A stretch of 33,021 nt of DNA. Origin: Muribaculaceae bacterium. GTDB taxonomy: Bacteria > Bacteroidota > Bacteroidia > Bacteroidales > Muribaculaceae. Below are positions 1,692-24,297 of the stretch, one piece after another. The position numbers and the translations under genes are program-made. Numbering within the stretch: the first letter of the stretch is position 1; each line of letters begins with the position of its first letter. The notes under the pieces are model-generated. The model saw nothing but the letters and a program-made list of their open reading frames with translations. It had not been told where the DNA came from and did not search any database. The stretch is from NCBI GenBank assembly GCA_024400935.1, contig JAKSLZ010000022.1:1-33021 (forward strand), read 5' to 3'.

Positions 1692-1732
1692 CAGTGCAAA
1701 AATGGTCGCAAATGCGACTAAAGTTGCAGTAG
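1691..1732. repeat. 42-bp nested palindrome, copy 2 (over the start site)
   Basis: The inner hairpin GTCGCA-AA-TGCGAC and the right arm TTGCAGTAG (1724-1732) are intact. The left arm has diverged to GCAGTGCAA, and its first G is the last base of the -7 promoter box. This copy overlaps the expected transcription start and an in-frame ATG at 1702 that is probably not the real start codon. Confidence 0.85.
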
Positions 1733-1752
1733 GATTCAAAATTGAACATGAA

Positions 1753-6917: not shown

Positions 6918-6950
6918 TTTGCCAAATACAAATCGACGTTTATAAATTTG
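6918..6950 (+). promoter_or_regulatory. Promoter of the esterase-susCD operon
   Basis: TTTG (6918-6921) and TAAATTTG (6943-6950) are separated by 21 bp and match the Bacteroidetes consensus. Transcription would start near 6957, leaving a leader of about 98 nt that contains one copy of the 13-bp direct repeat. Confidence 0.6.
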
Positions 6951-8072: not shown

Positions 8073-11000
8073 ATGAAAATGAACCGAGGTTTATCACGAT
8101 TCCTTATGGTGCTCCTCACAGCCATCTTGTGCATCCCATGGGCGATGGCACAAACCATCACTGTGAGTGGTACGGTAGTGGATTCGGAACAGGAACCCCT
8201 CATTGGTGTTTCTGTAGTGCAAAAGAATGCCCGAGCTAACGGTGTCGCCACCGATATCGAAGGCAAGTTCTCAATCAAAGTTCCTCAAAACGCCACATTG
8301 GTGTTCAGCTATGTCGGCTATGAGGAGAAAGAGGTTGCCGTGGCAGGCAACAGGACCATAAATGTGGTCCTCGACATGGGCGCCAACATGCTCGACGAGG
8401 TTGTAGCCGTGGGTTACGGTACTCAGAAACTGGTCAACGTGACCGGTGCCGTGTCATCGGTTAGTAGCAAGACCTTCGAGGGCAAGTCTATCGCCAATGC
8501 TGCCCAGGCGCTGCAGGGCCAGATGGCCAACGTGGGCATCACCATGACATCGGGCGCTCCCGGTGCGCAGGGTAACATCAACGTGCGTGGTTACACCTCT
8601 ATCAACGGTGGTGATCCCCTCGTGCTCATCGACGGTGTTCCCGGCAACATCAACGACATCAACCCCAACGATATCGAGAACGTGTCGGTACTGAAGGACG
8701 CTGCATCGGCTGCCATTTATGGTGCCCGTGCTGCATTTGGCGTTGTGCTTGTAACAACCAAGAGCGCCACCACCGATAAGTTCACTATCACTTATAACGG
8801 CTATGTGTCAACCTCTCGCCCCACAATGAGCACCGACTTCGTGACCTGCGGTTATGACCAGGTGTCGATTGTTGACGAGGCGTTTACCCGCACACTGGGT
8901 CGCACCTACACTGGTTACAGTGAGGAAGACATGGAGGAACTCTATCTGCGCCGCAACGACAAGACTGAGAACCCCGAGCGTCCTTGGGTGGTTGTAAAGA
9001 ACGTGGGTGGCCGCGATATCTACAACTACTACGGCAACTACGACTGGTGGAGCACATTCTTCAACCCCAATGCGTTGTCAACCCAGCACAATATCACCCT
9101 TTCGGGAAAGACCGGCAAGGCCAAGTTCAACCTGTCGGGCAACTACTATTCTAAGGATGGTATCATGAAGCTGAAGACCGACAAGTACACTGCTTACAAC
9201 CTGCGTGCCAAGACCGAGGTTGAGGCGTTCCCCTGGCTCAAGGTGTGGAACAACACCAGCCTCAATGTCAACCAGACCACATTCTATGGCCTGGGTGCCG
9301 ACGCTAACTTCCGTCAAGGCGAGTACCACGGTCTGGCGGCATATGCACCCTTTAACCCCGACGGCACTCCCACTTACCGCACAACAAAGAACAACTACAC
9401 CATTTGCGATGGTGTGACTCCGCTGCTTGCAACCAACTCGGGTGGTGTGAACCGTCGTTATCAAGTTGTTTCAACCACAGGTGCAACCATCGACTTGTTC
9501 AATAAGGTGAAGTTGAACTTTGACTACACATACGCTCCCTATTTTGCCAACAGCGAAACTCGCCTGTGCAAAGCCTACTATTCAATCGAGCCCGGTGTTA
9601 TGGAACTCGTGAGCCAGTATGCTACCGACCGTTTCACTAACTCTAACCACATGCTTCCCCACAGCATTGCCAATGGATATGCAGTGTGGGAGGACGTTTT
9701 CGGCAAGCACAACATCAAGGTTACAGGTGGTGTCAACTACGAGCACAAGCAGTACTACCTCATGACAGGCCAGCGTGACAACCTCACCAGCACATCGCTC
9801 AATGCCCTCAACTTGGGTACAAGCAACCAGCAGGCATCAGGCGACCGCTATGCTTACACTCTGTTGGGTACATTCGGTCGTGTCAACTACAACTACGACA
9901 ACCGTTACCTCCTCGAGGTTGATGCCCGCTACGACGGCACATCACGCTTCAAGAGTGGTTCACGCTATGGTTTCTTCCCTTCGGTGTCAGTAGCATGGCG
10001 CATGAGCGAGGAGAAATTCTGGGAGCCCATCAAGGAAACAGTCAATAACTTCAAGCTGCGTGCTTCTTACGGTTCGCTGGGTAACCAGAATGTGGCAACA
10101 TATGCTTACATCGCTACAATGGGTACAACCCAGAGCAGCTGGATCAGCAACAACCAGAAACTGATGTATTACAACGCTCCCGGTGCAATTTCTGACAAAC
10201 TCACTTGGGAGAAGGTTTATACAACCAACTTCGGTATTGACCTGGGTATGTTCCGCAACCGCTTGAACCTGGTTGCCGACATCTATCAGCGTGACACTAA
10301 GGACATGCTCGTTCCCGGTGTTGTCCTCCCCGGCGTGTTCGGTACTTCATCACCCAAGCAGAACATGGGCGAGCTTCGCACCCGTGGTTACGAAATCACC
10401 CTGTCATGGAACGACCGCTTCATGCTCGGTGGCAAGCCCTTCAACTACAGCATCAAGGGTACCCTGGGTGACAACACATCTGTCATCACCAAGTTTGATA
10501 ACCCCACCAAGAGCCTTACTACTTACTACGAGGGCATGAAGATTGGTGAAATCTGGGGCTGGTCTATTGGCTTGTTCCAGAGCGACGAAGAGGCTGCCGA
10601 GTACACCTCACGCGTTAATCAGGACCTCGTTAACCAGAAACTTCTCCAGTCGCCTATGGCCGAGTGGAACCACTATCGTGCCGGTGACGTTAAGTTCTAT
10701 GACCTCAATGGTGACGGCGTCATCTCACTGGGCAAGAACACCGTGGATGATCCCGGTGACAAGAAAATCATTGGTAACACCCAGCCCCGTTGGAACTATA
10801 GCTTCACTCTGAGCGGTGACTGGAACGGCATCGACTTCTCATGCTACTTCCAGGGCATCGGCCGCCGCGAGGTTTATCCCGACCACGAGAACTTTACCTT
10901 CTGGGGTATTCATGGCCGTCCCTACGGTACATATATGCCCAAGGATCGTATGTGGGACGCTTACTGGAGCGAGGAGAACCCCAACGGTTACCTTCCCCTG

Positions 11001-11303
11001 TTGCGTGCTTACATGGCACTCGACGATGGTGGTCCCCTCAAGCAGAAGACCGACCGCTACATCCAGAACGCAGGTTACATCCGCTTGAAGAACGTCGTGC
11101 TGGGTTACACACTGCCCGTAAGCCTTACAAGAAAATTCCACTGCGAGCGTCTGCGCTTCTACGTGAGCGGCGACAACCTGTGGACCAAGACTCCCATTCA
11201 CTCTAAGTACATCGATCCCGAAACATTCAATGTTTCAACTCATGGTGTGAACTATCCCAACATCAACAAGAACTTCACAGTGGGCGTTGATGTAACATTC
11301 TAA
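8073..11303 (+). CDS. susC: SusC-family TonB-dependent outer-membrane transporter
   Basis: This 1076-residue protein has a signal peptide (cleavage near AMAQ, residues 24-27). A carboxypeptidase-regulatory-like beta-sandwich (about 28-112) follows, then the SusC-type LDEVVAVGYGTQ segment, the TonB plug (about 118-235, containing NVRGYTSINGGDPLVLIDG) and a 22-strand-type barrel to the C-terminal Phe. It imports oligosaccharides across the outer membrane in a TonB-driven manner with the SusD partner encoded 21 bp downstream. A DLNGDG calcium-loop-like motif near residue 880 is common in this family. There is no STN signalling domain, so it is unlikely to signal to an anti-sigma factor. The length is typical. 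The start chosen is the first of two closely spaced ATGs. Confidence 0.96.
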   Translation: MKMNRGLSRFLMVLLTAILCIPWAMAQTITVSGTVVDSEQEPLIGVSVVQKNARANGVATDIEGKFSIKVPQNATLVFSYVGYEEKEVAVAGNRTINVVLDMGANMLDEVVAVGYGTQKLVNVTGAVSSVSSKTFEGKSIANAAQALQGQMANVGITMTSGAPGAQGNINVRGYTSINGGDPLVLIDGVPGNINDINPNDIENVSVLKDAASAAIYGARAAFGVVLVTTKSATTDKFTITYNGYVSTSRPTMSTDFVTCGYDQVSIVDEAFTRTLGRTYTGYSEEDMEELYLRRNDKTENPERPWVVVKNVGGRDIYNYYGNYDWWSTFFNPNALSTQHNITLSGKTGKAKFNLSGNYYSKDGIMKLKTDKYTAYNLRAKTEVEAFPWLKVWNNTSLNVNQTTFYGLGADANFRQGEYHGLAAYAPFNPDGTPTYRTTKNNYTICDGVTPLLATNSGGVNRRYQVVSTTGATIDLFNKVKLNFDYTYAPYFANSETRLCKAYYSIEPGVMELVSQYATDRFTNSNHMLPHSIANGYAVWEDVFGKHNIKVTGGVNYEHKQYYLMTGQRDNLTSTSLNALNLGTSNQQASGDRYAYTLLGTFGRVNYNYDNRYLLEVDARYDGTSRFKSGSRYGFFPSVSVAWRMSEEKFWEPIKETVNNFKLRASYGSLGNQNVATYAYIATMGTTQSSWISNNQKLMYYNAPGAISDKLTWEKVYTTNFGIDLGMFRNRLNLVADIYQRDTKDMLVPGVVLPGVFGTSSPKQNMGELRTRGYEITLSWNDRFMLGGKPFNYSIKGTLGDNTSVITKFDNPTKSLTTYYEGMKIGEIWGWSIGLFQSDEEAAEYTSRVNQDLVNQKLLQSPMAEWNHYRAGDVKFYDLNGDGVISLGKNTVDDPGDKKIIGNTQPRWNYSFTLSGDWNGIDFSCYFQGIGRREVYPDHENFTFWGIHGRPYGTYMPKDRMWDAYWSEENPNGYLPLLRAYMALDDGGPLKQKTDRYIQNAGYIRLKNVVLGYTLPVSLTRKFHCERLRFYVSGDNLWTKTPIHSKYIDPETFNVSTHGVNYPNINKNFTVGVDVTF

Positions 11304-11324: not shown

Positions 11325-13067
11325 ATGAAAAAATATATATTTTCAGCACTCATGGCAATGGGATTGATGACCACATCGTGCGACATCAACGAGTTGCCTC
11401 AGGCCAGCATCACTCCTGAAACATTCTTCCAGACCGAGGAAGACCTGCACCTCTACACCAACTCGTTCTATGGTGCATTCCCCGGTGCCGACCGTTTCTA
11501 CAACGAAAATGTTGATATCACCACTGGCCGTGAAATTCCAGAGATAATTCGCGGTGCATACGTTATTCCCACTACTGGCGGTGGCTGGAGTTGGGGTGAC
11601 TTGCGCAACATCAACTTCTATCTTGAGCGTTCAAGCCAGTGCAAGGACGAGAGCGCTCGCAACCGCTGGGATGCAGTGGCAAGGTTCTTCCGTGCTTACT
11701 TCTACTTTGACAAGGTGGCACGTTTCGGCGATGTTCCTTACTATAACTATGTAGTGGGTGACAACAGCCCCGGCCTCCAGGCCCCCCGCGACTCACGCGT
11801 TCTCGTTACTGAGAAGATGATCGAGGACCTCGACTTCGCAATCGAGCATCTGCCCACGGCAGTGAGCGTAAACGAGGTTAACAAGTGGACAGCCCTGTTC
11901 CTCAAGGCTCGCATCTGCCTCTACGAGGGTACATGGCGCAAGTATCATACCGAGTTTGGCCTCGACGGTGCCGACGAGCTTCTCACCCTTGCTGCTAATG
12001 CTGCCTTTGACGTGATGGAGCATGGTCCCTACAAGCTGCACAAGACAGGCAACCCCAATGTGGACTACATGAACCTCTTCAACCAGGACAACATCTTCAC
12101 TGACGAGGTAATCCTTGCTAAGCGCTACAGCGCCGCTCTAGGCGTGTATCACGATGCTAACTACAGCCGCCTGTCAACATCAAGCGACATCATCGGTCTC
12201 GAAAAGGCGTTTGTGAACAGCTACCTCATGAAGGACGGCTCACGCTTCACCGACAAGCCCGGTTACGAGACAATGCAGTTTATTCAGGAATGCGCTAATC
12301 GCGACCCGCGCCTGGCACAGACCATCCGCACCCCGGGTTACACCCGCGAGGGTACTGCACTACCTGCAAGCCTCTATACTTCAATGACAGGTTACACCAT
12401 CCACAAGTACCTCTCAGGCAGCAAGAACGATGCCAATGTGAAGGACGAGAGCGACATGCCCATCTTCCGTTTTGCCGAACTCCTGCTCATCTATGCCGAG
12501 GCAAGGGCCGAGTTGGGCCAACTTGACCAGAATGACCTGGACCTTACTGTTAACGAGCTGCGCTCACGCGTGGGTATGGAAGGCAAGCTCAACCTTGCTC
12601 AAGCTAATGCTAACCCCGACCCCTATCTGGAAGAGAACTTCTATCCTGGTGTTAAAGGTAGCAACAAGGGTGTAATCCTTGAGATTCGCCGTGAGCGTGC
12701 CATTGAGCTCGTTCAGGAAGGACAGCGCTGGAACGACATGTGCCGCTGGAAATGCGGTAGCACATTCACCCGTACTTACAAGGGCATGTACTTCCCCGGT
12801 TTGGGTGACTATGACCTGAACGGTGACGGCAAGATTGACCTGTGCATCTACACCGGTACCAAGCCCCGCAAGGGTAACATCGAGTACAAGCGCCTGGGTA
12901 CCGACATCATCCTCGAGAACGGCGAAGCCGGTGGCAATATGCTCATCAACTCACACTGGGTGAAGACTTGGAACGAGGGTCGTGACTACCTCTATCCCAT
13001 CCCCATCCAGGAGCGTCTGCTCAATCCCAACCTGACACAGAATCCCGGTTGGAACGACGGTATCTAA
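11325..13067 (+). CDS. susD: SusD-family surface glycan-binding lipoprotein
   Basis: This 580-residue SusD/RagB-type protein has a lipoprotein signal (MTTSC, Cys19). It acts as the lid of the SusC transporter and captures oligosaccharides at the cell surface. The N-terminal INELPQASITPETFF, the WRWDAVARFFRAYFYF-like helix (here NRWDAVARFFRAYFYF) and the C-terminal NPNLTQNPGW are hallmark SusD features. A DLNGDGKID loop near residue 500 is also frequent. The gene is 21 bp after susC and clearly co-transcribed with it. A strong terminator follows at 13123, so the cassette downstream may need read-through or its own promoter. Confidence 0.96.
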   Translation: MKKYIFSALMAMGLMTTSCDINELPQASITPETFFQTEEDLHLYTNSFYGAFPGADRFYNENVDITTGREIPEIIRGAYVIPTTGGGWSWGDLRNINFYLERSSQCKDESARNRWDAVARFFRAYFYFDKVARFGDVPYYNYVVGDNSPGLQAPRDSRVLVTEKMIEDLDFAIEHLPTAVSVNEVNKWTALFLKARICLYEGTWRKYHTEFGLDGADELLTLAANAAFDVMEHGPYKLHKTGNPNVDYMNLFNQDNIFTDEVILAKRYSAALGVYHDANYSRLSTSSDIIGLEKAFVNSYLMKDGSRFTDKPGYETMQFIQECANRDPRLAQTIRTPGYTREGTALPASLYTSMTGYTIHKYLSGSKNDANVKDESDMPIFRFAELLLIYAEARAELGQLDQNDLDLTVNELRSRVGMEGKLNLAQANANPDPYLEENFYPGVKGSNKGVILEIRRERAIELVQEGQRWNDMCRWKCGSTFTRTYKGMYFPGLGDYDLNGDGKIDLCIYTGTKPRKGNIEYKRLGTDIILENGEAGGNMLINSHWVKTWNEGRDYLYPIPIQERLLNPNLTQNPGWNDGI

Positions 13068-13122
13068 TTTTGATTAGTTGGTTTATATATCAGAACATTA
13101 TCTGAGGTAAAAAGTTGGTTTT

Positions 13123-13159
13123 AAGGGGACTGCATAGTCCGCATTGTAGTCCCCTTTTT
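13123..13159 (+). terminator. Rho-independent terminator after susD
   Basis: AAGGGGACT (13123-13131) pairs with AGTCCCCTT (13148-13156), followed by a short T-run. It lies 55 bp past the susD stop. It could be a full terminator or an attenuator that lowers expression of the cassette downstream relative to susCD. Confidence 0.75.
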
Positions 13160-13193
13160 AACTCACAAACAGAAACTAAACAATTACAGCAAT

Positions 13194-14495
13194 ATGAAAA
13201 TTCAATCTCTCTTTGGCCGTATGGCCGCAATGGTACTTCCGCTCGCATTCTGCATGGTAGCATGTGGCGGTGACGAACCCGGTCCTTCTCCTAAACCCGA
13301 TCCCGATCCCGATCCCGCTCCCGCATTCAAGCAAGCGGCAAGTCAAGACTATCAGTTGCTTCACCCCAATACCCTTGAGGCAAAGAATGTCTATTTCCTC
13401 TCGCTCATCAACAACCAGACTGCCTTGAGCAGCGCGGTTAAGGGCGACGCCGAACTTGCAGCACTGTCTAAGAAGAAATATGAGGCATTTGTAGCCGCTA
13501 CCACAGTCAAGGACAAGATTGCCGCAGTAGTGTTCTCTAACACCGAGATCACAGCAGCCGGCAAGCGCATCGCCGAGCTGTGGAAGGCCGGCAACGCTTG
13601 GGACAAGGTGGCTATTGACCATCTCTCGCCCAGCGGATGCTATATCCTCAACAAGAGCAACACCGTGCCTGCGTTCCTGCAGGGCGTGTGGGCAACCGAT
13701 GCTCAGGCTCTCAACACCATCAATAAGATATTTGGCGACGGCAGTCAGGCTGCTCACTGCGACGACGACCAGCGCACTGCAACCGACGACCAGGTACTGG
13801 CAGCGCTCAAGGCTGTTGAGGGTAAGGTGAACGCACAGTCTCCCTTCTACCTGCTTGCACTTGAGTGTGCCAAGGTTGTGCTCAACGTTAACGGCCGCGA
13901 CACTGAGGCTATCAACTTCGAGCCCATGAACTCTGGTTGCAACAAAGCTGCCTATGAGGCTGGCAAGAAGGTTGACTGGAGCAAGTATGAATACACAATA
14001 ATCATGGTTCCCGGCAATGGCCCCGACGACTACAACACTCCCCTCCATCCTCAAGGCAAGGTGCGCTGCGACATCGGTTACGAACTGTGGACACAGGGAT
14101 ATGCTCCCTTCATCATGGTATCAGGCGGCCGCATCCATCCCAGCAAGACCAAGTATTGCGAGGCCGAGGAAATGAAGAAATACCTCATGGGCAAGGGCGT
14201 TCCCGAGGATGCCATCATCATGGAGCCTCACGCTCGTCACACTCCCACCAATGTGCGTAACATGGTGCGCGTGATATTCCACATGGGCCTGCCCATGAAC
14301 AAGGGCGGTATCATCGCTTGTGAGGCTAACGTCATCACTAACACATTCCAGAGCCAGGCGTTCTTGAACCGTTGCCAGAGCGAGTACAGCTTCATCCCCG
14401 TAACCTTTGGCAAGACCATCACAACACAGGCCATCGCGTTCTATCCCAAGACCGACTGCCTGAACATCTACTCTAAAGATCCCCTGGATCCGTAA
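13194..14495 (+). CDS. Lipoprotein with DUF218 (YdcF/SanA-like) domain
   Basis: This 433-residue lipoprotein (FCMVAC, Cys24) has an Asp/Pro-rich linker of PDPDPDP type (about 33-42). A helical region (about 48-260) precedes a C-terminal DUF218-like domain (about 263-400). DUF218 features include a Gly-rich strand (MVPGNGPDDY), FIMVSGGRIHPS, and the conserved IIMEPHARHTPTNVRN segment. YdcF, SanA and ElyC of E. coli belong to this family; their chemistry is poorly known, with envelope or cofactor-binding roles suggested. The last residues are DPLDP. A paralogue with an IPT domain in place of the lipoprotein linker lies at 18737-20311 and ends DTLDP. A secreted DUF218 protein in a glycan locus is unexplained. 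Confidence 0.82.
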   Translation: MKIQSLFGRMAAMVLPLAFCMVACGGDEPGPSPKPDPDPDPAPAFKQAASQDYQLLHPNTLEAKNVYFLSLINNQTALSSAVKGDAELAALSKKKYEAFVAATTVKDKIAAVVFSNTEITAAGKRIAELWKAGNAWDKVAIDHLSPSGCYILNKSNTVPAFLQGVWATDAQALNTINKIFGDGSQAAHCDDDQRTATDDQVLAALKAVEGKVNAQSPFYLLALECAKVVLNVNGRDTEAINFEPMNSGCNKAAYEAGKKVDWSKYEYTIIMVPGNGPDDYNTPLHPQGKVRCDIGYELWTQGYAPFIMVSGGRIHPSKTKYCEAEEMKKYLMGKGVPEDAIIMEPHARHTPTNVRNMVRVIFHMGLPMNKGGIIACEANVITNTFQSQAFLNRCQSEYSFIPVTFGKTITTQAIAFYPKTDCLNIYSKDPLDP

Positions 14496-14500
14496 TAAAA

Positions 14501-14575
14501 GTTTAAAGGTTTAAAGGTTTAAAAGTTTAAAGGTTTAAACTCTTAAATTCCTAAACTCCTAAACCCTTACAAAAA
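14501..14575 (+). repeat. Octamer tandem repeat, five copies, with a degenerate inverted half
   Basis: GTTTAA cores at 14501, 14509, 14517, 14525 and 14533 begin five bases after the stop of the DUF218 lipoprotein gene. They are followed by CTTAAATTCCTAAACTCC-like sequence, roughly the reverse complement of the same octamer. The whole could fold into a weak A/T-rich hairpin. Confidence 0.75.
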
Positions 14576-14605
14576 ACACGTTTAACTAATTAAATACATT
14601 TCACT

Positions 14606-15094
14606 ATGAGAAAGAAACTATTTACTATTCTCGCAATGGTGTTTGGTTTGATTGCTTCAGCGCATGCCGAGTTGGTGCCCAGCATGACTGTGATTGACCC
14701 AAACGGCAATGAGATTTTGACATGGCCTCTCGTCGAGGTTGCCGAGATTGAACTCGGTGACAACGGCGTGACCTTCAAGTCGGCTGTCACAGGCGCCAAC
14801 GATTGTGGCATGAGCTACAGCCAAATCCAGGAAATCGAGTTGGGCGACAAGGAACCCACTCCCACAGGCATCAACGACGCTAAGGTGGGCACAGTGGCTC
14901 GCGTTACCAGCGATCTGGTTCAGCTCGCCAACGCTCCCGCCCTGGCAGGTATCGCTATCTATGACATGAACGGCCGTAAGGTGCTGGGTAGCACTACCGA
15001 TGCAAGCGGTACCGCTACCATCAACCTGAGCGACCTGGGCAATGGCGCTTATGTTATTAAGGTGAACAACTACACACTCAAGTTTGTGAAGTAA
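14606..15094 (+). CDS. Small secreted protein with T9SS-type C-terminal tail
   Basis: This 162-residue protein has a signal peptide (to about residue 21, AHA/E). A short beta-rich module (22-80) contains MTVIDPNGNE and ends in YSQIQEIELGD. The C-terminal part (about 88-162) resembles the Por-type (type A) secretion tail: GINDAK, IAIYDMNGRKVL, INLSDLGNGAYVIKV and a final KFVK. That would predict type IX export and surface attachment, if the host has T9SS. The N-terminal module is clearly homologous to residues 23-82 of the protein at 16689, which carries a dockerin instead of this tail. It sits 44 bp before its beta-propeller neighbour, so the two probably act together. No enzyme motif is visible. 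Confidence 0.78.
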   Translation: MRKKLFTILAMVFGLIASAHAELVPSMTVIDPNGNEILTWPLVEVAEIELGDNGVTFKSAVTGANDCGMSYSQIQEIELGDKEPTPTGINDAKVGTVARVTSDLVQLANAPALAGIAIYDMNGRKVLGSTTDASGTATINLSDLGNGAYVIKVNNYTLKFVK

Positions 15095-15138
15095 ACCGTC
15101 AAATCAAATTTAATCAATAACAGAAAATTATTACAACA

Positions 15139-16422
15139 ATGAAAAAATATATGTTCCTTATGGCTGCTGGCCTTATCGCTACAGCCGGTGTTGCTCAGGA
15201 CAAGGTGTATCTGATCAACAAGACCAACAACAGCATCGTGGCAACATTTGACCGTGCCGACGTTACTACCATTTCGTTCCAGAACGTTCTCGAGGCTCCC
15301 GTTATCACATCGGTAACACCCGCGAGCGTCAAGATTGGTGCCGACATCACCATCGCAGGCGAGAATTTCAGCGGTGTGAAAGAGGACAACACAGTGACAA
15401 TCGACGGCGTGGCTTGCAACATCAAGAGCGCAAGCACTACCGAGCTCGTGGTTGAGGCTCCCAGTGTGTTAGGTACTTTCTCCGTTGTCGTCACATCTAA
15501 CGGTAAGGAAACCACCAGCACTGACCAGGTAGAAATATGGGGCGAGCGCATCTCAGTGGTTAAGAACGTTGTTGACCTTCCCACCGTGCTCGGTGGCAAG
15601 CAGAGCCATTCATTTGAGTTCACTGCCGACGGCAAGATGCTCTTCGCTTCAATTGACAATCCCAACAAGTACTACTGCTACGATCCCGCTACAGGAGCTG
15701 TCGAGGTGATCAAGGAAGAGGGTGACAACTGGATTTACTCAATGACTCGCAACGGCGACAAGGTTATGCTTGCAGCCAAGAGCACAGGCAAGATGCTCAG
15801 CCTCGACCTCAATAGCAAGGAAATCGAGGAGGTAGCTACAGACCTGAGCCAGATTCTGCGTGTTGCTGTTGACGCTCAGGGCAACGCTTACGCTCTGCTG
15901 CGCGACGATGCTAAGATTTACAAGTTTGACGGCTGCACCGGCGCTGGCAAGACTCTCTTTGCCGATTTCAAGGCTACCGATGGCCAGATCTGGGACATGG
16001 CATTTGATGCTAACGGCAACCTCCTCGTGGCAGGTAACTGCGCTCTTTACAGCGTAGCTCCCGACGGCACCAAGACCACTATCGTGGGTGAGACTGGTGT
16101 GGGCTCAACTAATGACGAGCTCCACGACTACCTGGGCAACGCAAGCACTGCTCACCTGCAGAAACCCCGCATGCTGTGTGTTGACGGCCGCGGTTACGTT
16201 TGGTTCCAGGACCAGTGGAACATCACCCGCGTCCTCAAGCCCGCTGCCGATGGCTCTTACCAGAACGGTGATCTCAAGATCATGTGGTACGGCAACAGCG
16301 GTCAGAAGACAGGCGAGACTGCACAGATCTCAGTTGATCCCATCAGCGGTGATGTATTTGTAAGCATTTGGTCGGTAGGTTACAACGTACCCGTTCAGAT
16401 TTACAAGTTCGTCGTTGAGTAA
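15139..16422 (+). CDS. Secreted IPT/TIG + NHL-like beta-propeller protein (copy 1)
   Basis: This 427-residue protein has a type I signal peptide (GVAQD, about residue 20) and no lipobox. A short module (21-50) has the VYLINKTNNSIVATFDRADV pattern, which is widespread in secreted Bacteroidales proteins. An IPT/TIG immunoglobulin-like domain follows (about 52-135, SVTPASVKIGADITIAGENF), then an NHL/SMP-30-like propeller (about 150-427) with repeated FTADGKMLF, VDAQGNAYAL, FDANGNLLVAG and VDGRGYVWFQD blades. Such proteins often occupy the SusE/SusF-like glycan-binding position in utilisation loci, so carbohydrate binding is likely (inference). It is a close paralogue of the protein at 17182. It lacks a visible surface anchor. 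Confidence 0.82.
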   Translation: MKKYMFLMAAGLIATAGVAQDKVYLINKTNNSIVATFDRADVTTISFQNVLEAPVITSVTPASVKIGADITIAGENFSGVKEDNTVTIDGVACNIKSASTTELVVEAPSVLGTFSVVVTSNGKETTSTDQVEIWGERISVVKNVVDLPTVLGGKQSHSFEFTADGKMLFASIDNPNKYYCYDPATGAVEVIKEEGDNWIYSMTRNGDKVMLAAKSTGKMLSLDLNSKEIEEVATDLSQILRVAVDAQGNAYALLRDDAKIYKFDGCTGAGKTLFADFKATDGQIWDMAFDANGNLLVAGNCALYSVAPDGTKTTIVGETGVGSTNDELHDYLGNASTAHLQKPRMLCVDGRGYVWFQDQWNITRVLKPAADGSYQNGDLKIMWYGNSGQKTGETAQISVDPISGDVFVSIWSVGYNVPVQIYKFVVE

Positions 16423-16650
16423 TTTTTAAGAACGCTCGCTTTGCGAGCTATAAGGACGCGTTGCTTTAAGAACGCTTCGCTATAAGAACGGCACTTGCGT
16501 GCCTATAAGAACGCTCCGCTGCCGCTTCGCTATAAGAACGCTTGCTTGCGCAAGCAAGAAGCTTAAATTCTTATATCTTAAACTCTTATAGGGCGCCAGC
16601 CCGTTCTTATAGGACGAAGTCCGTTCTTATAGGACGTCAGTCCGTTCTTT
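16423..16650. repeat. Hairpin array with constant linker TATAAGAACG
   Basis: Linkers TATAAGAACG, or close variants, occur near 16428, 16449, 16466, 16481, 16504 and 16531. Inverted copies CGTTCTTATA occur at 16602, 16622 and, truncated, at 16643. Between linkers lie different short hairpins: GCTCGC-TTT-GCGAGC (16434-16448), GGCAC-TTGC-GTGCC (16490-16503), the palindrome CTTGCTTGCGCAAGCAAG (16541-16558), GGGC-GCCA-GCCC (16591-16602), GGAC-GAA-GTCC (16612-16622) and GGAC-GTCA-GTCC (16632-16643). Stems change while linkers are conserved. The two halves are in opposite orientation and could form one large stem. Confidence 0.85.
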
Positions 16651-16688
16651 AAAAAAACAAATTATTAATAACTTATAAAACAACAATC

Positions 16689-17129
16689 ATGATGAGAAAA
16701 AAGGTAATTTCTTTTCTTGCAATGATGCTTGTATTTGTGGCTCCTATCTTTGCCGAAGGCGTTGAGTCGCTCATGGTCGTGACCAAGGACGGCACTCCCG
16801 GCATCCAACTGGCACTCGGTGACGTGCAGAAGATCACTGTAGGGGAAACAAGTATAAAAATCATTCCCAAGGCTTCGAGCGCAGCTCAGCCTGAGTATTT
16901 CTACAGCAATCTCATGAAGATTAAACTTGGTGAGATGGAGCCCGTGGGCCTCAAGGGTGATGTGAACGGTGACGGCAGCGTCGACATCTCAGACGCTAAC
17001 ATCGCTATCAACATTATTCTCGGCTCAAGCAGCCAGAGCAGCTATCCCGCAGCTGATGTCAACGGCGACGGCAGTGTTGATATCTCAGACGTTAACATCG
17101 TCATCAACATCATTCTGGGCGGTGCATGA
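16689..17129 (+). CDS. Small secreted protein with C-terminal type I dockerin
   Basis: This 146-residue protein has a signal peptide (to about residue 22). A short beta-rich module (23-82) containing LMVVTKDGTPG and ending in YSNLMKIKLGE is homologous to the protein at 14606. A dockerin follows (about 88-146). Its two calcium loops, DVNGDGSVDISD, occur at 91-102 and 123-134, each followed by a helix (IxINIILG). The two dockerin halves are near-identical even at DNA level, from about 16959 and 17055. Dockerins bind cohesins, but no cohesin is visible in the window. The gene lies 52 bp before the second propeller gene, mirroring the 14606/15139 pair. Two adjacent ATGs are possible starts. No catalytic domain is present. 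Confidence 0.85.
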   Translation: MMRKKVISFLAMMLVFVAPIFAEGVESLMVVTKDGTPGIQLALGDVQKITVGETSIKIIPKASSAAQPEYFYSNLMKIKLGEMEPVGLKGDVNGDGSVDISDANIAINIILGSSSQSSYPAADVNGDGSVDISDVNIVINIILGGA

Positions 17130-17181
17130 TACCGCACGGGTTTATAAACAAATTCAAGAACACAATTAATCAGAAATCACA

Positions 17182-18453
17182 ATGAAGAAATATATTTTAA
17201 TTCTCGCTGCTGGCCTGCTCGCTACATCGGCTGTTGCACAGGAGAAGGTGTATCTTATCAAGAACAACACCATCGTTGCCACTTATGACCGTGCCAACGT
17301 AGACGAAATCATGTTTGAAAACAATCTTCCCACTCCCACCATCACAAGTGTTAACCCCACAACAGTGCTGGTAGGTAAGAAGCTTACTATCACCGGTACC
17401 AACTTCAGCACCGACCGTGCTGCCAACAAGGTTACCATCAACGACGTTGCTTGCAATGTCGCTTCAGCAACAACTACTCAGCTCGACGTTATCGTGCCCA
17501 CTATGGAGCCCGGTAGCTATCCCGTTGTTGTTACCGTAAACGAGAAGACTGTTACCGGTCCCGTTGTAGAGGTTAAGAACGGTGAGACCATCAACGTGTG
17601 GGAAGGCATCATCGACATCACTAAGATTGGCGACGGCACTGGCGTTCACGCTATTGAGTTCATGGCCGACGGCAAGCTCCTCCTCTTATCAAGCGACGAC
17701 AACAATCCCAACGTAATCTATAGCTTCGACTGGGATTCAGAGGTTGCTACTCCTCTCTACACCGGCACTAAGACTTGGTACTGGTTTGCTAACCGCGTGG
17801 GCAACAAGCTCCTCCTCCCCTCAAAGCCTCAGGGCAAGATGGAAGTCATGGACCTCACAACCAACACTATCACTACTCTCGCAACCGATCTGCCTCAGAT
17901 CCTGCGCGTATGCACCGATGCTAACGGCAACGCTTACGCTCTGCTTCGCGACGCTGCTAAGGTTGTTAAGTTCAACGGCATGACAGGCGAAGGCATGACT
18001 GACGTTCTCGACGCTAAGGCTACCGACGGCCAGCTGTGGGATATGTGCTTCGATGGCGATGGCAACCTCCTCGTCTTCGGTAACTGCGCTATCTATTGCA
18101 TCGCTCCCGACGGCACCAAGACTACTATCGTGGGTGCTACTGGTCAGGGCTCAACCGATGCCGACCTCCACGACTACATGGGCAACGCTGGTGAGTGCAA
18201 GATCCAGAAGGGCCGCGTTATCTTCTGCGACTCTAAGGGTTATGTATGGTTCCAGGACCAGTGGAACATCCTGCGCGTCCTCACTAAGGGTGCTACAGGC
18301 TACCAGGATGGTAACGTGAAGATTGTTTCACGCCAGGACGGCAGCAAGCTGGGCGAGCTCGGTCAGATTGCCGAGGATCCCACTACATCGGCTCACGAGG
18401 TAATGGCTGTTAGCTGGAACCTCAAGCAGGTATTCGCTATCTCAATTGAATAA
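17182..18453 (+). CDS. Secreted IPT/TIG + NHL-like beta-propeller protein (copy 2)
   Basis: This 423-residue paralogue of the protein at 15139 has the same order: signal peptide (SAVAQE), VYLIKNNTIVATYDRANV module, IPT/TIG domain (about 50-130, SVNPTTVLVGKKLTITGTNF) and propeller (about 150-423). The propeller has FMADGKLLL, TDANGNAYALLRD, FDGDGNLLVFGN and CDSKGYVWFQDQWN blades. Identity with copy 1 is highest in the propeller, for example in the AYALLRD and WFQDQWNI segments. There is no lipobox and no C-terminal sorting tail. The likely role is glycan binding at or near the outer membrane, working with the adjacent dockerin protein (inference). The pairing suggests tandem duplication of a two-gene unit. 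Confidence 0.82.
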   Translation: MKKYILILAAGLLATSAVAQEKVYLIKNNTIVATYDRANVDEIMFENNLPTPTITSVNPTTVLVGKKLTITGTNFSTDRAANKVTINDVACNVASATTTQLDVIVPTMEPGSYPVVVTVNEKTVTGPVVEVKNGETINVWEGIIDITKIGDGTGVHAIEFMADGKLLLLSSDDNNPNVIYSFDWDSEVATPLYTGTKTWYWFANRVGNKLLLPSKPQGKMEVMDLTTNTITTLATDLPQILRVCTDANGNAYALLRDAAKVVKFNGMTGEGMTDVLDAKATDGQLWDMCFDGDGNLLVFGNCAIYCIAPDGTKTTIVGATGQGSTDADLHDYMGNAGECKIQKGRVIFCDSKGYVWFQDQWNILRVLTKGATGYQDGNVKIVSRQDGSKLGELGQIAEDPTTSAHEVMAVSWNLKQVFAISIE

Positions 18454-18491
18454 TGTTAGTAAGGTTAAAATATAATTTGAGATTGAATTTA

Positions 18492-18667
18492 GGTGAGTTC
18501 TATTAATTATGATAAATGTTTATTAATTATTTCGGTCGCTTTTGAGTCTGTTTTGGCATCTTTTTGACATTCAGTCGGTCACGAAGCTCGCTTCGCTCCC
18601 TCTTCATGCCAAAAATCTACTCAAAACACCCCTCAAAATTGCCTCGACATAATTAATAGAACACACC
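18492..18667. mobile_element. MITE-like 176-bp inverted-repeat element
   Basis: GGTGAGTTCTATTAATTATG (18492-18511) is matched in reverse complement by 18648-18667 with one mismatch, a 20-bp terminal inverted repeat. TTA occurs directly outside both ends, consistent with a 3-bp target duplication. Inner segments also pair imperfectly: TTTTGAG and TTTTGGCAT on the left match ATGCCAAAAA and CTCAAAA on the right, so the whole element folds into a long imperfect hairpin. There is no coding capacity. No transposase is visible nearby. Confidence 0.55.
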
Positions 18668-18677
18668 TTAAGCTGGT

Positions 18678-18733
18678 AGGGGACCCTGCAACGGGGTCTA
18701 ACCGGAGTGAGGGTTCCCTATTTTAATTTTTTA
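18678..18733 (+). other. Leader hairpin or terminator before the IPT-DUF218 gene
   Basis: AGGGGACCCT (18678-18687) and AGGGTTCCCT (18710-18719) pair at 9 of 10 positions and are followed by a T-rich run. An alternative stem, GACCC/GGGTC (18682-18686 with 18694-18698), competes with it. Terminator and 5'-leader structure are both possible. The following start codon is only 17 bp away. Confidence 0.45.
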
Positions 18734-18736
18734 CTG

Positions 18737-20311
18737 ATGAAATTTATATTTGCGACAATTATGGCTATGGTCTGTGCCACCACGGTGATGGCGCAGCAAC
18801 CCACTTACCTGCTGCTCAAGAAGGACGGCAAGGTGGTGGACTATGTAAAGGCAGCCAGCGTTGACAGCATCACCTTTGAGAACCGCATTTCTAAGGTAAC
18901 TCGCATACAGCCCGTGCAGGGCAAGCCCGGTACCACAATCATGATTACCGGCACGGGATTTAACCCCGACATTGACAAGACAAGTGTGACCGTGGGCGGT
19001 GTCAAGGCTACAATTAAAAACCTGACATCGACACGCATCCAGGCCGTCGTGCCTGAGAATCTCAACGGACGCTACCCCGTGGTAGTGAACACCTACGACA
19101 CTCCAGTCGCAGGTCCAAACTTTGAATACAACATGAGCGAAGAGGAGGTTATGGCTCCCCATGCCACCTATAGTGTCATTGCGCCCGAGCAACTGCTCAC
19201 CAAGAACTGTTATCTCTTCACATTATTAGCTACCATACCACAGTACAAGAATGCACTGGAGCAGGTGAGCTTTTTCAATGACCTCTCTGTCTCTCGATTA
19301 GATAAACTCAAGACCTCGGCCGATGCCACCTCGGCAATGAACGCAATGCGCTTCAGTACCACACTCATTACCAAGTGGGCAAACACTTTTGCCGACCTGT
19401 GGGAAGAAGGCAACATGTGGGACATGCTCGTGAAGCAGCACCTGTGGCCTTCGGGTATGTACGACAAAGTCAAGGGCAAGGATGCCAAGGCAACCCTTAG
19501 CGCCGCCTTCAGCCAGGATGCGCTTTACATAAATAGGATAATAGGTATCTATGGCATCAAGAACTTAACCCCGCACTGCAGCGACGATGTCGCCACTGCA
19601 ACCGATGCCCAACTAACGGGTTGGATGAACTGGGTGTGCAGCCATGCCCAGCCGGGGCAGAATCTTTTTGACCTGAGCCTGATGACATGCCGTGCCATTC
19701 TCTCGGCAAACGGAAAGGAAACCACATCGGTGCTCTTTGAACCATACGCAACCGTGGGCAATGCCTGCGCTATGGACGCCCTAAGGACCGTGAACTGGGC
19801 AAACTATGGCTATGGCGTGATTTTGTGCCCCGGTGCTGGCCCCAACGATTATGTGACTGCCCTGACCTCGAGCAGTAAGGATCGTTGCAACTATGCGATA
19901 AACGAATACAAGGCCAAGCGCGCCCCGTTCATCATGGTGAGCGGTGGCAAGGTGCATCCCGCCGGGACAAACTACTGCGAGGCCTATGAGATGAAAAAAT
20001 ACCTGATGAGCCAGGGCATTCCCGAGAGTGCCATCATCATGGAGCCTCAGGCGCGCCACACGCCCACCAACTTCCGCAACTGCGCACGCATCATGTTCCG
20101 CGCAGGCATGCCGGTCGACAAGCCGTGTGTGGTGGTGTGCGAGCATGCTCCGCTCGTAAAGTTTTACGACGGAACGTTGCAAGCCCGATTCACTACCGAC
20201 TTGGGCTACCAAGCAGTGACATTTGGCAACGAACTGAATAACAATTGCGTGGAGTTTTACATAAATACTGTATCACTCACGATTGGTCCGCAAGACACTT
20301 TAGATCCGTAA
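18737..20311 (+). CDS. Secreted IPT/TIG + DUF218 (YdcF/SanA-like) fusion protein
   Basis: This is 524 residues from ATG 18737. An upstream in-frame GTG (18707) would add ten residues read from the leader hairpin and spoil the signal peptide. The signal peptide ends near VMAQQ. The short YLLLKKDGKVVDYVKAASV module and an IPT/TIG domain (about 45-130, TRIQPVQGKPGTTIMITGTGF) follow, then the helical region and C-terminal DUF218 domain shared with the lipoprotein at 13194. Matching motifs are FIMVSGGKVHPAGTNYCEAYEMKKYLM and IIMEPQARHTPTNFRN (the first split across about residues 395-420). It ends DTLDP, the paralogue DPLDP. It thus joins the propeller proteins' N-terminal half to the DUF218 enzyme, which supports shared localisation or ligand. 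No lipobox is present. The reaction is unknown. Confidence 0.82.
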   Translation: MKFIFATIMAMVCATTVMAQQPTYLLLKKDGKVVDYVKAASVDSITFENRISKVTRIQPVQGKPGTTIMITGTGFNPDIDKTSVTVGGVKATIKNLTSTRIQAVVPENLNGRYPVVVNTYDTPVAGPNFEYNMSEEEVMAPHATYSVIAPEQLLTKNCYLFTLLATIPQYKNALEQVSFFNDLSVSRLDKLKTSADATSAMNAMRFSTTLITKWANTFADLWEEGNMWDMLVKQHLWPSGMYDKVKGKDAKATLSAAFSQDALYINRIIGIYGIKNLTPHCSDDVATATDAQLTGWMNWVCSHAQPGQNLFDLSLMTCRAILSANGKETTSVLFEPYATVGNACAMDALRTVNWANYGYGVILCPGAGPNDYVTALTSSSKDRCNYAINEYKAKRAPFIMVSGGKVHPAGTNYCEAYEMKKYLMSQGIPESAIIMEPQARHTPTNFRNCARIMFRAGMPVDKPCVVVCEHAPLVKFYDGTLQARFTTDLGYQAVTFGNELNNNCVEFYINTVSLTIGPQDTLDP

Positions 20312-20361
20312 TAAATCAAAAGGTCGGTCCCCGCAGGGGCAGGCTGAAAACAATATATAAA

Positions 20362-21843
20362 ATGAACGAAAAAAATTACTTCGCTGTTGACCTGGGTGCG
20401 ACAAGTGGCCGCACCATATTGGGAACCATGAGAGATGGTAAGCTCGAGATGCGTGAGGTGACACGCTTTCGCAACCATATCATCGAAAACGGAGACCATA
20501 GCTACTGGAACCTCCTGGCCCTCTATCGTGAAATTTTAGGTGGCCTGAAGCGTGTAGCGGCCGACGGCATACACATTGAGTCAATAGGTATCGACACCTG
20601 GGGTGTGGACTTTGCCTTCTTTGGCAAAGACGGCGAACTGTTGCGTCCGCCTTACAGCTATCGTGACCGCAAGAACACCCAGGGCGCTCCACAGCGTTAT
20701 TTCAAGAAAGTACCAGCCGAAAAGGTGTACAGTATCACCGGCATCCAGGTGCTCGACTTCAACTCGCTGTACCAGCTCAATTCGCTCAAGGAGGACGGTT
20801 GCTCGGCACTTGAATCGGCCGACAAGATTCTGTTCCTGCCCGACGCGCTGAGCTATATGCTCACCGGCAACATGGTGACTGAGTACACCATTGCCTCTAC
20901 ATCCAATTTCCTCAACCCCCGCACCAAGCAACTGGAGCAGGAATTGCTCGACCCCATAGGCATCAGCGTAGACCAGTTTGCTCCCATAGTGATGCCGGGT
21001 ACCCAGATTGGAACTCTCTCGCCCAACGTACAGCGCCTCACCGGCCTGGGCGCAGTTCCCGTCATCGCCGTTGCCGGTCATGACACCGCATCGGCAGTTG
21101 CTGCGGTTCCGGCTGCAGGACAGGAGTATGCTTACCTGAGTTCTGGCACTTGGAGTCTCATGGGTATAGAGACTGACGAGCCCATCATCACCGAGACGAG
21201 CCGTGAGTGGAACTTCACTAACGAGGGCGGCCTGGGAGGCAAGACCCGTTTCCTCAAGAATATATGCGGCATGTGGCTGCTGGAGCGTTGCTGCCAGGAA
21301 TGGGGCAACAATGACTATGCTTGCCTCATCACCAGTGCTAAGGAAGTGAAGCCTTTCCGCAGCATCATCAACCCCGATGACCCCTCGTTTGCCAACCCCA
21401 TTTCTATGGTACAGGCAATTATCCAATATTGCGAGGACACTAACCAACCCGTGCCGCAGAGTAAGGGCGAGTTCAGCCGCTGCATCTTTGATTCACTTGC
21501 ACTGCGCTACCGCATGGTGATGAACAAGTTGCAGGATATGTCGCCGTTCAACATCAAGCGCCTGCATGTGATAGGTGGCGGCTCACGCAACGACATGCTC
21601 AACCAGCTCACTGCCAACGCCACACAGAAACTTGTGGTTGCCGGCCCCAGCGAGTGCACAGCAATGGGTAACCTGCTGGTACAAATCAAGACGAAAGACC
21701 CCGAGCACTTTGACCGCCGCAGCATCGTGGTGCGCAGTGTGGATACCAAGATGTTCTGCCCCGGTGATAAGGAGCTGTGGGACGAAGGTTACATCAAGTT
21801 CCTGCGCATCCTCGAGAACTATGAGCACAAGATTGTGTCGTAG
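20362..21843 (+). CDS. rhaB: Rhamnulokinase
   Basis: This 493-residue FGGY-family kinase phosphorylates L-rhamnulose to L-rhamnulose 1-phosphate in the cytoplasm. The N-terminal phosphate-binding strand is FAVDLGATSGRT, and DTWGVDFAFF is the RhaB-type substrate segment. GHDTAS carries the probable catalytic base D241, followed by AYLSSGTWSLMG. The C-terminal ATP-binding VIGGGSRN is intact. The open frame extends upstream to 20245 and overlaps the previous gene. The ATG at 20362 gives the normal kinase N-terminus and is the clear start. A small GC hairpin (CCCC-GCA-GGGG, 20329-20339) lies in the leader. It is the first gene of a rhaB-rhaA-rhaT-rhaD run, the same order as the B. thetaiotaomicron rhamnose operon. 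Confidence 0.95.
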   Translation: MNEKNYFAVDLGATSGRTILGTMRDGKLEMREVTRFRNHIIENGDHSYWNLLALYREILGGLKRVAADGIHIESIGIDTWGVDFAFFGKDGELLRPPYSYRDRKNTQGAPQRYFKKVPAEKVYSITGIQVLDFNSLYQLNSLKEDGCSALESADKILFLPDALSYMLTGNMVTEYTIASTSNFLNPRTKQLEQELLDPIGISVDQFAPIVMPGTQIGTLSPNVQRLTGLGAVPVIAVAGHDTASAVAAVPAAGQEYAYLSSGTWSLMGIETDEPIITETSREWNFTNEGGLGGKTRFLKNICGMWLLERCCQEWGNNDYACLITSAKEVKPFRSIINPDDPSFANPISMVQAIIQYCEDTNQPVPQSKGEFSRCIFDSLALRYRMVMNKLQDMSPFNIKRLHVIGGGSRNDMLNQLTANATQKLVVAGPSECTAMGNLLVQIKTKDPEHFDRRSIVVRSVDTKMFCPGDKELWDEGYIKFLRILENYEHKIVS

Positions 21844-21927
21844 TAAAAGTTTAAAAGGTTAATCGAGAGTAACGTTAATAACGACAATAACGATAGTAAC
21901 GACAACAACAATAAAAACTATACAACT

Positions 21928-23181
21928 ATGAAAGAAGAACTCATCATTAAGGCTTATGAGATTGCTCGCGAGCGCTATGCTGCCCTGGGCATCGACACCG
22001 ATAAAGTACTTGCTCAGATGCAAGATTTCCACCTCTCGCTGCACTGCTGGCAGGCCGACGACGTAATCGGCTTTGAAAACGCTGGCGGCAGCCTCACCGG
22101 TGGCATCCAGACTACAGGTAATTATCCCGGCCGTGCACGCAACATCGACGAACTGCGTGCCGATATCCTCAAGGCTACATCGCTCATCGCCGGTACTCAC
22201 CGCCTTAATCTTCACGAGATTTATGGCGACTTCCAGGGGAAGAAGGTTGACCGTGACGAGGTGACCGTTGAGCACTTCCAGAGTTGGATTGACTGGGCAA
22301 AGGAGAACAACATGAAGCTTGACTTCAACTCAACATCGTTCTCTCACCCCAAGAGCGGCAACCTGAGCCTCTCGAGCCCCGACGAGGGTATCCGCGAGTT
22401 CTGGGTAGAGCATACTAAGCGTTGCCGTGCCATTGCCGAGGAAATGGGTAAGGCACAGGGCGACCCCAGCATCATGAACATCTGGGTACACGATGGTGCT
22501 AAGGACATCACTGTTAACCGTTCGCTCTATCGTCAGCAGTTCAAGAAATCGCTTGACGAGATTTTTGAGACAAAATACGACAACATGCGCGACTGCCTCG
22601 AGTCTAAGACATTCGGCATCGGTCTCGAGAGCTTCACATCGGGTTCTCTTGAGTTCTGCGTGGGCTATTGCGCTGCCAACGATAAGATTTACACTATCGA
22701 CACCGGCCATTATCATCCCATGGAGAATGCTGCCGACAAGGTGTCATCACTCCTTCTCTATGTCCCCGAGTTGATGCTTCACGTAACCCGTGGCGTGCGT
22801 TGGGACAGCGACCATGTTACTATCATGGAAGATCCCACAATGGATCTGTTCAAGGAAATCGTGCGTGCCGATGCCATCGACCGTGTACACTATGGCCTCG
22901 ACTACTTTGACGCATCAATCAACCGCATCGGTGCATACGTGATAGGTAGCCGTGCTGCGCAGAAGTCAATGCTGTGCGCCCTGCTCGAACCCATCGCAAC
23001 ACTGCGCCAACTCGAACTCGAAGACAAGGGCTTCCAGAAGCTCGCTCTGCTCGAGGAGTGCAAGTCTATGCCCTGGCAGGCGGTTTGGGATATGTTCTGT
23101 CTCAAGAACGATGTACCCGTGGGCAACGAGTTTATCCCCGAAATCGAAGCCTACGAGCGCGAGGTGACAATTAAGAGGTAA
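21928..23181 (+). CDS. rhaA: L-rhamnose isomerase
   Basis: This 417-residue enzyme interconverts L-rhamnose and L-rhamnulose, the first step of rhamnose breakdown. The length is typical. Metal-site residues line up with the E. coli enzyme one position lower: H261 in DTGHYHP, then D293 and D295 in RWDSDHV. The N-terminal LHCWQADDV and GIQTTGNYPG segments are also characteristic. The 84-bp gap before it has a remnant of the GTTTAA octamer followed by repetitive AACGA-type sequence, with no recognisable promoter, so it is probably co-transcribed with rhaB. Confidence 0.96.
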   Translation: MKEELIIKAYEIARERYAALGIDTDKVLAQMQDFHLSLHCWQADDVIGFENAGGSLTGGIQTTGNYPGRARNIDELRADILKATSLIAGTHRLNLHEIYGDFQGKKVDRDEVTVEHFQSWIDWAKENNMKLDFNSTSFSHPKSGNLSLSSPDEGIREFWVEHTKRCRAIAEEMGKAQGDPSIMNIWVHDGAKDITVNRSLYRQQFKKSLDEIFETKYDNMRDCLESKTFGIGLESFTSGSLEFCVGYCAANDKIYTIDTGHYHPMENAADKVSSLLLYVPELMLHVTRGVRWDSDHVTIMEDPTMDLFKEIVRADAIDRVHYGLDYFDASINRIGAYVIGSRAAQKSMLCALLEPIATLRQLELEDKGFQKLALLEECKSMPWQAVWDMFCLKNDVPVGNEFIPEIEAYEREVTIKR

Positions 23182-23183
23182 AA

Positions 23184-23231
23184 GTTTAAAAGTTTAAAGG
23201 TTTAAAGGTTTAAACGGTTTAAATGGTTTAA
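23184..23231 (+). repeat. Octamer tandem repeat, six copies, after rhaA
   Basis: GTTTAA cores at 23184, 23192, 23200, 23208, 23217 and 23226 start two bases after the rhaA stop codon. A pyrimidine-rich CTCTCC/TCTCTC stretch follows, up to the rhaT start. This is the same octamer family as at 7924 and 14501. Confidence 0.85.
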
Positions 23232-23276
23232 TCTCCGAGATCTCTCCTCTCTCATCTCTCAATTCTCTACTAAATT

Positions 23277-24293: not shown

Positions 24294-24297
24294 ATTT

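Follow-up and report, generated by a model that had tools for sequence, protein, structure and literature searches.

A run of six genes for secreted-type proteins follows the SusC and SusD genes of a rhamnose locus in a Muribaculaceae bacterium. The window analysed here is the whole 33,021-nucleotide stretch of contig JAKSLZ010000022.1 (assembly GCA_024400935.1), and the six open reading frames occupy positions 13194–20311 of its plus strand, between SusD and RhaB. A (13194–14495, 433 aa) is a long DUF218 protein (Pfam DUF218, 50.7 bits); S1 (14606–15094, 162 aa) is a small leader protein with a Por_Secre_tail (PF18962, 33.2 bits; TIGR04183, 39.2 bits); P1 (15139–16422, 427 aa) combines a leader, an IPT/TIG domain (TIG, 51.2 bits) and a probable beta-propeller; S2 (16689–17129, 146 aa) is a small leader protein with a type I dockerin (Dockerin_1, 53.6 bits); P2 (17182–18453, 423 aa; TIG, 54.2 bits) is a paralog of P1; and B (18737–20311, 524 aa) carries a leader, a P-type IPT domain (TIG, 49.3 bits) and a long DUF218 module (54.7 bits). 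From SusD through RhaB the spacers measure 126, 110, 44, 266, 52, 283 and 47 bp. A preliminary description, made from the letters of the stretch, had read this array as a DUF218 gene, two tailed-protein/propeller pairs and a second DUF218 gene; the Pfam scan agrees, and the distances it gave within the pairs, 44 bp for S1–P1 and 52 bp for S2–P2, are exact.

Both DUF218 matches exceed the gathering cut-off of PF02698 (27.6 bits) and are partial, covering profile positions 2–91 in A and 10–88 in B out of 133. The N-terminus of A reads as a lipobox-like MVAC followed by GGDEPGP and a Pro/Asp spacer, and from this reading A is predicted, probably, to be a surface lipoprotein. B starts with a signal-peptide-like stretch that opens at the ATG at 18737, the longest frame beginning at a GTG at 18707. 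Propeller matches of P1 in Pfam are weak (SGL, Reg_prop and Mala_s_1, all below cut-off), as are those of a P1/P2 profile in the PDB, where the best (E 4.6e-4) is a G-beta propeller; the C-terminal part of P1 and P2 is a probable beta-propeller. A C-terminal Por secretion tail, which marks cargo of the type IX secretion system (T9SS), is carried by S1 alone (33.2 bits), with no Pfam match to it in A, P1, P2, S2 or B. The dockerin match of S2 lies at 16953–17117, in a genome rich in dockerins and nearly devoid of cohesins: type I dockerin matches number 102 in the assembly, which is 77% complete, compared with 3 for Por tails and 2 for cohesins, one of these below cut-off. It also encodes two further small leader-plus-dockerin proteins of S2 build (L113, 3234–3656; L114, 3252–3665), away from P1/P2-like genes.

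The array bears clear marks of duplication. Identity is 35% between A and B (403 residues) and 50% between P1 and P2 (431), while S1 and S2 have the leader alone in common, at 31% identity across the first 85 aa (z = 11.4 against 300 shuffles; among the leaders tried, the runner-up score for S1 or S2 was z = 5.1, between S2 and a different small dockerin protein encoded in this genome), and differ in their tails, one of T9SS type and the other a dockerin. The P1/P2 profile finds the leader and IPT domain of B at profile positions 3–137 (E 4.8e-16), and at E <= 1e-15 it matches P1, P2, B and nothing else in the own genome. Because its leader and IPT domain are of P type and its DUF218 module is of A type, B is, by sequence, a real domain join. 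In a tree of the long DUF218 proteins, A and B cluster apart from the 17 others (support 100/99); B sits on a long branch, the root is a midpoint root and the bootstrap had not fully settled. Three claims of the preliminary description hold: a tandem duplication of the small-protein and propeller unit, bracketing DUF218 proteins that are paralogs of one another, and a Rosetta-stone-like join in B.

The spacers between these units hold repeats of several kinds. Between P2 and B lies a long imperfect inverted repeat (18488–18671) with 24-nt arms that are 92% complementary; the fold of 18480–18700 has an energy of −61.9 kcal/mol (z = −4.4), and the element may be what is left of a mobile element, or else a terminator. 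The spacer from P1 to S2 holds short palindromic repeats of the type TATAAGAACGC at 16430–16650, and A is followed by an 8-bp tandem repeat at 14496–14543. An Rfam scan of 13000–20400 gave no match.

A and B belong, on the evidence of their alignments, to a distinct family that we call long DUF218. A search with the A and B alignment found eight full-length relatives in Bacteroidota species. One more (G403) came from a search of 393 genomes of the order, in which 95 genomes other than this one and the own one had partial profile matches of no more than 51.9 bits, nearly all of them to the DUF218 half, as ordinary short DUF218 proteins do. Among 395 genomes of the phylum, seven besides the own genome hold a long DUF218, as does one further genome among 395 of the class; seven plasmid records hold one too, of which six enter the locus comparison. 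In total 23 loci outside the window were fetched, namely 8 from Bacteroidota species, 9 from the order or class of the window, one from Persicobacter and 5 from sphingomonads. An end-to-end alignment of 18 rows, A included, has invariant GxGP, GG, EA, ARHT, N, R-N and a C-terminal DP, and these residues are kept in a 10-row alignment that includes the Persicobacter and five sphingomonad proteins, three of which (L180–L182) have a shorter N-half. The AlphaFold2 model of A residues 48–433 (pLDDT 89.5, pTM 0.86) places only helices in the first ~210 residues, followed by an alpha/beta half. A search of the PDB with the long DUF218 profile returned a single match, at E 0.4, which we took as chance. 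The relatives outside the window mostly begin with an ordinary signal-peptide-like sequence, as read from their N-termini, and not with a lipobox. The strict conservation of polar residues in ten members (GxGP, GG, HP, EA, ARHT, TN and RN) suggests catalysis. E. coli SanA requires T125, H149 and E182, according to PMC12176290, and T125 corresponds, when matched by eye, to the invariant Thr of ARHT. Since Thr alone of this triad has an obvious counterpart, the long DUF218 protein is likely an enzyme with an altered site, a binding role being the alternative.

The relatives are found beside nutrient receptors. A TonB/SusC-type receptor lies within the fetched stretch in 19 of the 23 loci, comprising 14 of the 18 non-sphingomonad loci (L021, L023, L024, L025, L027, L067, L068, L070–L074, L132 and L177) and all five sphingomonad records. 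These receptors fall into three types, none of them like that of the window. Eleven loci carry a SusD at least 56% like that of L023, L072, L073 and L177 carry a second type (45–50% alike), and the sphingomonad TonB receptors are at least 60% like that of L178, with no SusD seen in the five sphingomonad loci, either in the annotation of L180 and L181 or by BLAST. The SusD of the window scores only 25–54 bits against those of the DUF218 loci, compared with 527 and 392 bits (48% and 40%) against two control loci. As the long DUF218 protein meets several unrelated receptor types, association by descent alone is unlikely, and it probably arose more than once.

In addition to the receptor, a propeller recurs. 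A family of 291-residue proteins is present in 9 of the 18 non-sphingomonad loci (L021, L023, L024, L025, L027, L067, L068, L071 and L132), its gene adjoining DUF218 in all but L071. Neighbours were compared with 40 control SusD loci, five from each of eight genomes that also hold test loci, by tblastn at 1e-15, the queries being taken from test loci and the match of a query to its own locus dropped; the controls were hand-picked, mostly from higher-scoring SusD matches, as 17 kb stretches (one of 16.5 kb), and L177–L182 stand outside the Fisher tests. The 291-residue family occurs in 9 of 13 DUF218 loci and in none of the 40 controls (P = 1.6e-7), and it is absent from 177 other genomes of the class. 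Three members scanned gave no Pfam match, and a PDB sequence search gave a single match at E 0.46, which was set aside. A model of the protein (pLDDT 87.7) has 282 PDB structure matches at E <= 0.001, propellers among them at E 4.9e-8 and 1e-7; as modelled, the family is a beta-propeller.

Enzymes beside the long DUF218 gene may hint at its substrate. A GH92 gene starts at the end of DUF218 or no more than 30 bp from it in L072, L073 and L177, and in the Novosphingobium loci L178 (11182–11185) and L179 (11215–11218) its frame overlaps DUF218 by 4 bp, pointing to coupled translation; in L027 it is placed after SusD. The DUF218-linked GH92 proteins of L027, L072 and L073 are 57–61% alike, compared with 23–30% to control GH92s; those of L177–L179 are more distant, the L178 protein being 31–36% like those of L027, L072, L073 and L177. 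GDPD follows SusD in L025, L068 and L074 and is present in none of the 40 controls, a YncE-phosphoesterase (a fusion of propeller and phosphoesterase) is near in L071 and L132 and in one of 40 controls, and in L177 a Ca-dependent phosphatidylinositol-specific phospholipase C (PI-PLC; PI-PLC-C1, E 3.4e-98) follows GH92. Together, GDPD or phosphoesterase genes occur in 5 of 13 DUF218 loci and 1 of 40 controls (P = 0.002). Several candidates were left out of this count: an alkaline phosphatase in L069 and a phytase-like gene in L067, both ~7 kb from DUF218; a phosphodiesterase/sulfatase-like gene in L020; and a metallophosphoesterase in L132. The 'nuclease' genes of L180–L182 were likewise not counted as phosphodiesterases because Pfam and PDB support is lacking: in L180 and L181 the word is a record label, with no Pfam S1-P1 match there and none in the PDB, and the L182 candidate has Pfam S1-P1 at E 0.12 only and no PDB match. 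The one control with this fusion, L150, also carries a window-like SusC/D (40%) and a metallophosphoesterase-like gene, with no long DUF218.

The six genes as a set were found in this genome only. Full-length A was found in 1 of 297 family genomes, its own, and 14 others match it weakly through leader-like stretches or parts of the DUF218 domain; a phage collection held no match to A. Full-length P1/P2 was found in none of 149 other relatives at 1e-15, and the propeller half alone, at 1e-5, gave a single 48-residue partial match across 174 other relatives, none of which holds the full-length protein. In six-frame tblastn at 1e-5, S1, S2 and P2 have no match in the 23 other loci, and neither do RhaB, RhaA, RhaT, RhaD and GH106. 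Since none was found, both the rhamnose specificity and the small tailed partners lack comparative support, and the rhamnose link is, across the loci compared, a feature of the window itself. The preliminary description had suggested that the array could be a surface glycan-processing or sensing complex of the rhamnose locus, and had asked whether the gene types co-occur beside susCD and rha genes. S1 and S2 do not recur in these loci; DUF218 with a propeller and SusC/D does recur in distant genomes, whereas rha genes accompany it in 0 of 23 loci. Its own grounds for doubt, that the genes are rarely neighbours elsewhere, hold for the six as a set and not for the core of DUF218, propeller and receptor. 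One hint in its favour is an 83-residue tblastn match to P1 in L068, the only one at 1e-5 in the 23 loci, in an NHL-repeat protein (34%) that is ~7 kb away on the other strand.

Taken together, the six-gene set is a local, duplicated and shuffled form of a wider long DUF218 family tied to TonB-dependent uptake in two phyla. We favour, at a probability of about 60%, the reading that members of the long DUF218 family serve TonB-dependent and mostly SusC/D uptake loci as secreted accessories, probably as enzymes, and were duplicated and recombined in the window. The long DUF218 protein would act on a ligand on the cell surface or within the periplasm, often together with a beta-propeller, GH92 or a phosphodiesterase. 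In the window, the family lies within a rhamnose locus and has been duplicated as A and B around a duplicated pair of small protein and IPT-propeller, B having arisen by fusion of a P-type leader and IPT domain to its DUF218. The lipoprotein-like A and B would then process a surface-held ligand, P1 and P2 may bind or scaffold, S1 and S2 may provide anchoring tails that P1 and P2 lack, and SusC/D would take up the product.

Several observations weigh against this reading. The His and Glu of SanA have no conserved counterpart in the long DUF218 alignment. We know of no activity for any long DUF218 protein, and a Foldseek search with the DUF218 model of A found no match at E <= 0.001, the 50 listed of 596 rows all having a query TM below 0.25. 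A receptor was not seen in L020, L022, L026 and L069, the contig of L020 being cut 5′ of the gene, and the 11 loci that carry the L023-like SusD are related by descent and not independent, whereas the P values count them as independent. Sequence comparison led us to reject homology between P1/P2 and the 291-residue propeller (hhalign probability 0.3%); the DUF218–propeller pairing thus recurs with different propeller families, and the association that the preliminary description had looked for stands for the gene types and not for the P1/P2 family. GH92 is not enriched by presence (3 of 13 against 5 of 40 controls, P = 0.39), and only its clade is set apart. The phosphodiesterase test was chosen after the loci had been seen, in loci that are related, and four neighbours are each found in a single locus (a metallophosphoesterase in L132, a phosphodiesterase-like gene in L020, a phytase-like gene in L067 and PI-PLC in L177). 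The MINPP-like phosphatase, through which the window itself has a tie to phosphate, lies 7.4 kb from B and was rejected as a shared neighbour (0 of 23 loci, 0 of 40 controls). Because the test is post hoc, the loci are related and MINPP is distant and unshared, a ligand carrying a phosphodiester of mannosyl- or inositol-phosphate type is rated as possible only. Equally tentative is the bolder version in which the long DUF218 protein is the signature enzyme of undescribed TonB-dependent uptake loci for phosphodiester-linked glycoconjugates (mannosyl-phosphate or inositol-phosphate glycans or glycolipids), accompanied by a propeller, GH92 or GDPD/PI-PLC in Bacteroidota and sphingomonads with unrelated receptors, the window being a duplicated and shuffled rhamnose/MINPP version.

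The position of A directly 3′ of susD, with its lipobox-like start, is also what would be expected if the cassette encoded surface glycan-binding proteins (SGBPs) without catalytic activity, occupying the SusE/F position in a rhamnose locus, with DUF218 taken over for binding. SGBPs commonly contain IPT domains and propellers, the SanA His and Glu have no obvious counterpart here, and most outside relatives adjoin SusC/D. This account must contend with polar residues strictly kept in ten members from Bacteroidota to sphingomonads, with the signal-peptide-like rather than lipobox starts of most outside relatives and with the five sphingomonad loci in which no SusD was seen; we consider it unlikely, with a real minority chance of being right. 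The periplasmic E. coli proteins ElyC and SanA, which are reported to affect enterobacterial common antigen (ECA) and peptidoglycan (PMC3879167, PMC12176290, PMC8609368), raise the thought that DUF218 acts here on the cell's own envelope glycans and lies in the locus by chance. We hold this very improbable: receptors of several types neighbour the gene in 19 of 23 loci, full-length A is far rarer among family genomes than a housekeeping envelope factor would be, and the own genome encodes an ordinary short DUF218 protein at a separate site. The array might also have no joint function and be a group of secreted genes multiplied in place through duplication and recombination. The exact set was found in no other genome searched, the intergenic repeats and the long hairpin between units may point to local rearrangement, and dockerin modules are common in the genome; nevertheless both DUF218 genes and both P genes are still open after diverging to 35% and 50% identity, B holds modules of both types, and the core of DUF218, propeller and receptor recurs, which makes this account quite improbable.

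The surroundings of the cassette form a polysaccharide utilization locus (PUL), with adjacent SusC and SusD genes and carbohydrate-active enzymes (GH106, a BD-FAE-like esterase, GH31 and GH127) besides rha genes. Its order is GH106, esterase, SusC, SusD, the six genes, kinase, rhaA, rhaT and aldolase. The GH106 alpha-L-rhamnosidase is encoded at 3326–6583 on the minus strand (PF17132, 1028 bits), and on the plus strand follow the SusC-type TonB-dependent receptor (8073–11303; Plug, CarbopepD_reg_2 and TonB barrel), SusD (11325–13067; SusD_RagB, 158.6 bits) and, 3′ of B, an FGGY sugar kinase at the RhaB position (20359–21843; Pfam FGGY), which opens the kinase-rhaA-rhaT-aldolase run at 20359–25113 (Pfam FGGY, RhaA, RhaT and Aldolase_II, the aldolase being of class II). 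After the rha genes come GH31, the MINPP-like phosphatase, GH127 and a melibiase-like hydrolase. The phosphatase, a histidine phosphatase related to inositol polyphosphate phosphatases (27724–29028, plus strand; His_Phos_2, 42.4 bits), thus sits within a run of rhamnose-locus hydrolase genes; its PDB matches are 7r5y, 'Histidine acid phosphatase' (E 1.3e-74), and MINPP1 entries (E 1.2e-50 to 3e-48). A tandem pair of AAA_14/DUF4143 genes occupies the left end (242–1579 and 1702–3069). The Bacteroides −33/−7 promoter consensus has 4 matches in the window against 0.54 expected, one of them at 6918–6950, upstream of the esterase, and none inside the six-gene cassette.

DUF218 proteins are widespread, and even those of E. 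coli have no known chemistry; a secreted-looking branch whose gene neighbours are nutrient receptors and enzymes with substrates that can be guessed opens a route to that chemistry, its GH92, GDPD, PI-PLC and propeller neighbours pointing to testable candidate ligands. If the favoured reading is true, the long DUF218 protein is a new accessory among the known parts of Sus-type loci. Searches of the open-licence literature for DUF218 with polysaccharide utilization, YdcF with SusD, and NHL repeats with SusD and IPT found nothing. Of the systems that come closest, ElyC, SanA and YdcF of E. coli have the Pfam DUF218 core in common with A and B, and the Thr is likely common with the SanA triad; the long proteins differ in their ~210-residue helical N-half and in having relatives beside TonB receptors. 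The bacterial glutaminyl cyclase propellers (3mbr and 3nol) resemble the 291-residue partner in fold, at TM 0.60 and 0.58, with an identity of only 12–14%; that partner belongs to other loci and has no counterpart in the window, where P1 and P2 represent a different family with an IPT domain. The window resembles PULs with SGBPs at the SusE/F position in that SusC and SusD are directly followed by secreted-type, IPT-bearing proteins, with sugar-specific hydrolases and rha catabolic genes nearby. What distinguishes the window, by comparison with the open-licence papers searched, is that this position is occupied by DUF218 proteins; the duplicated S–P pairs are a further difference.

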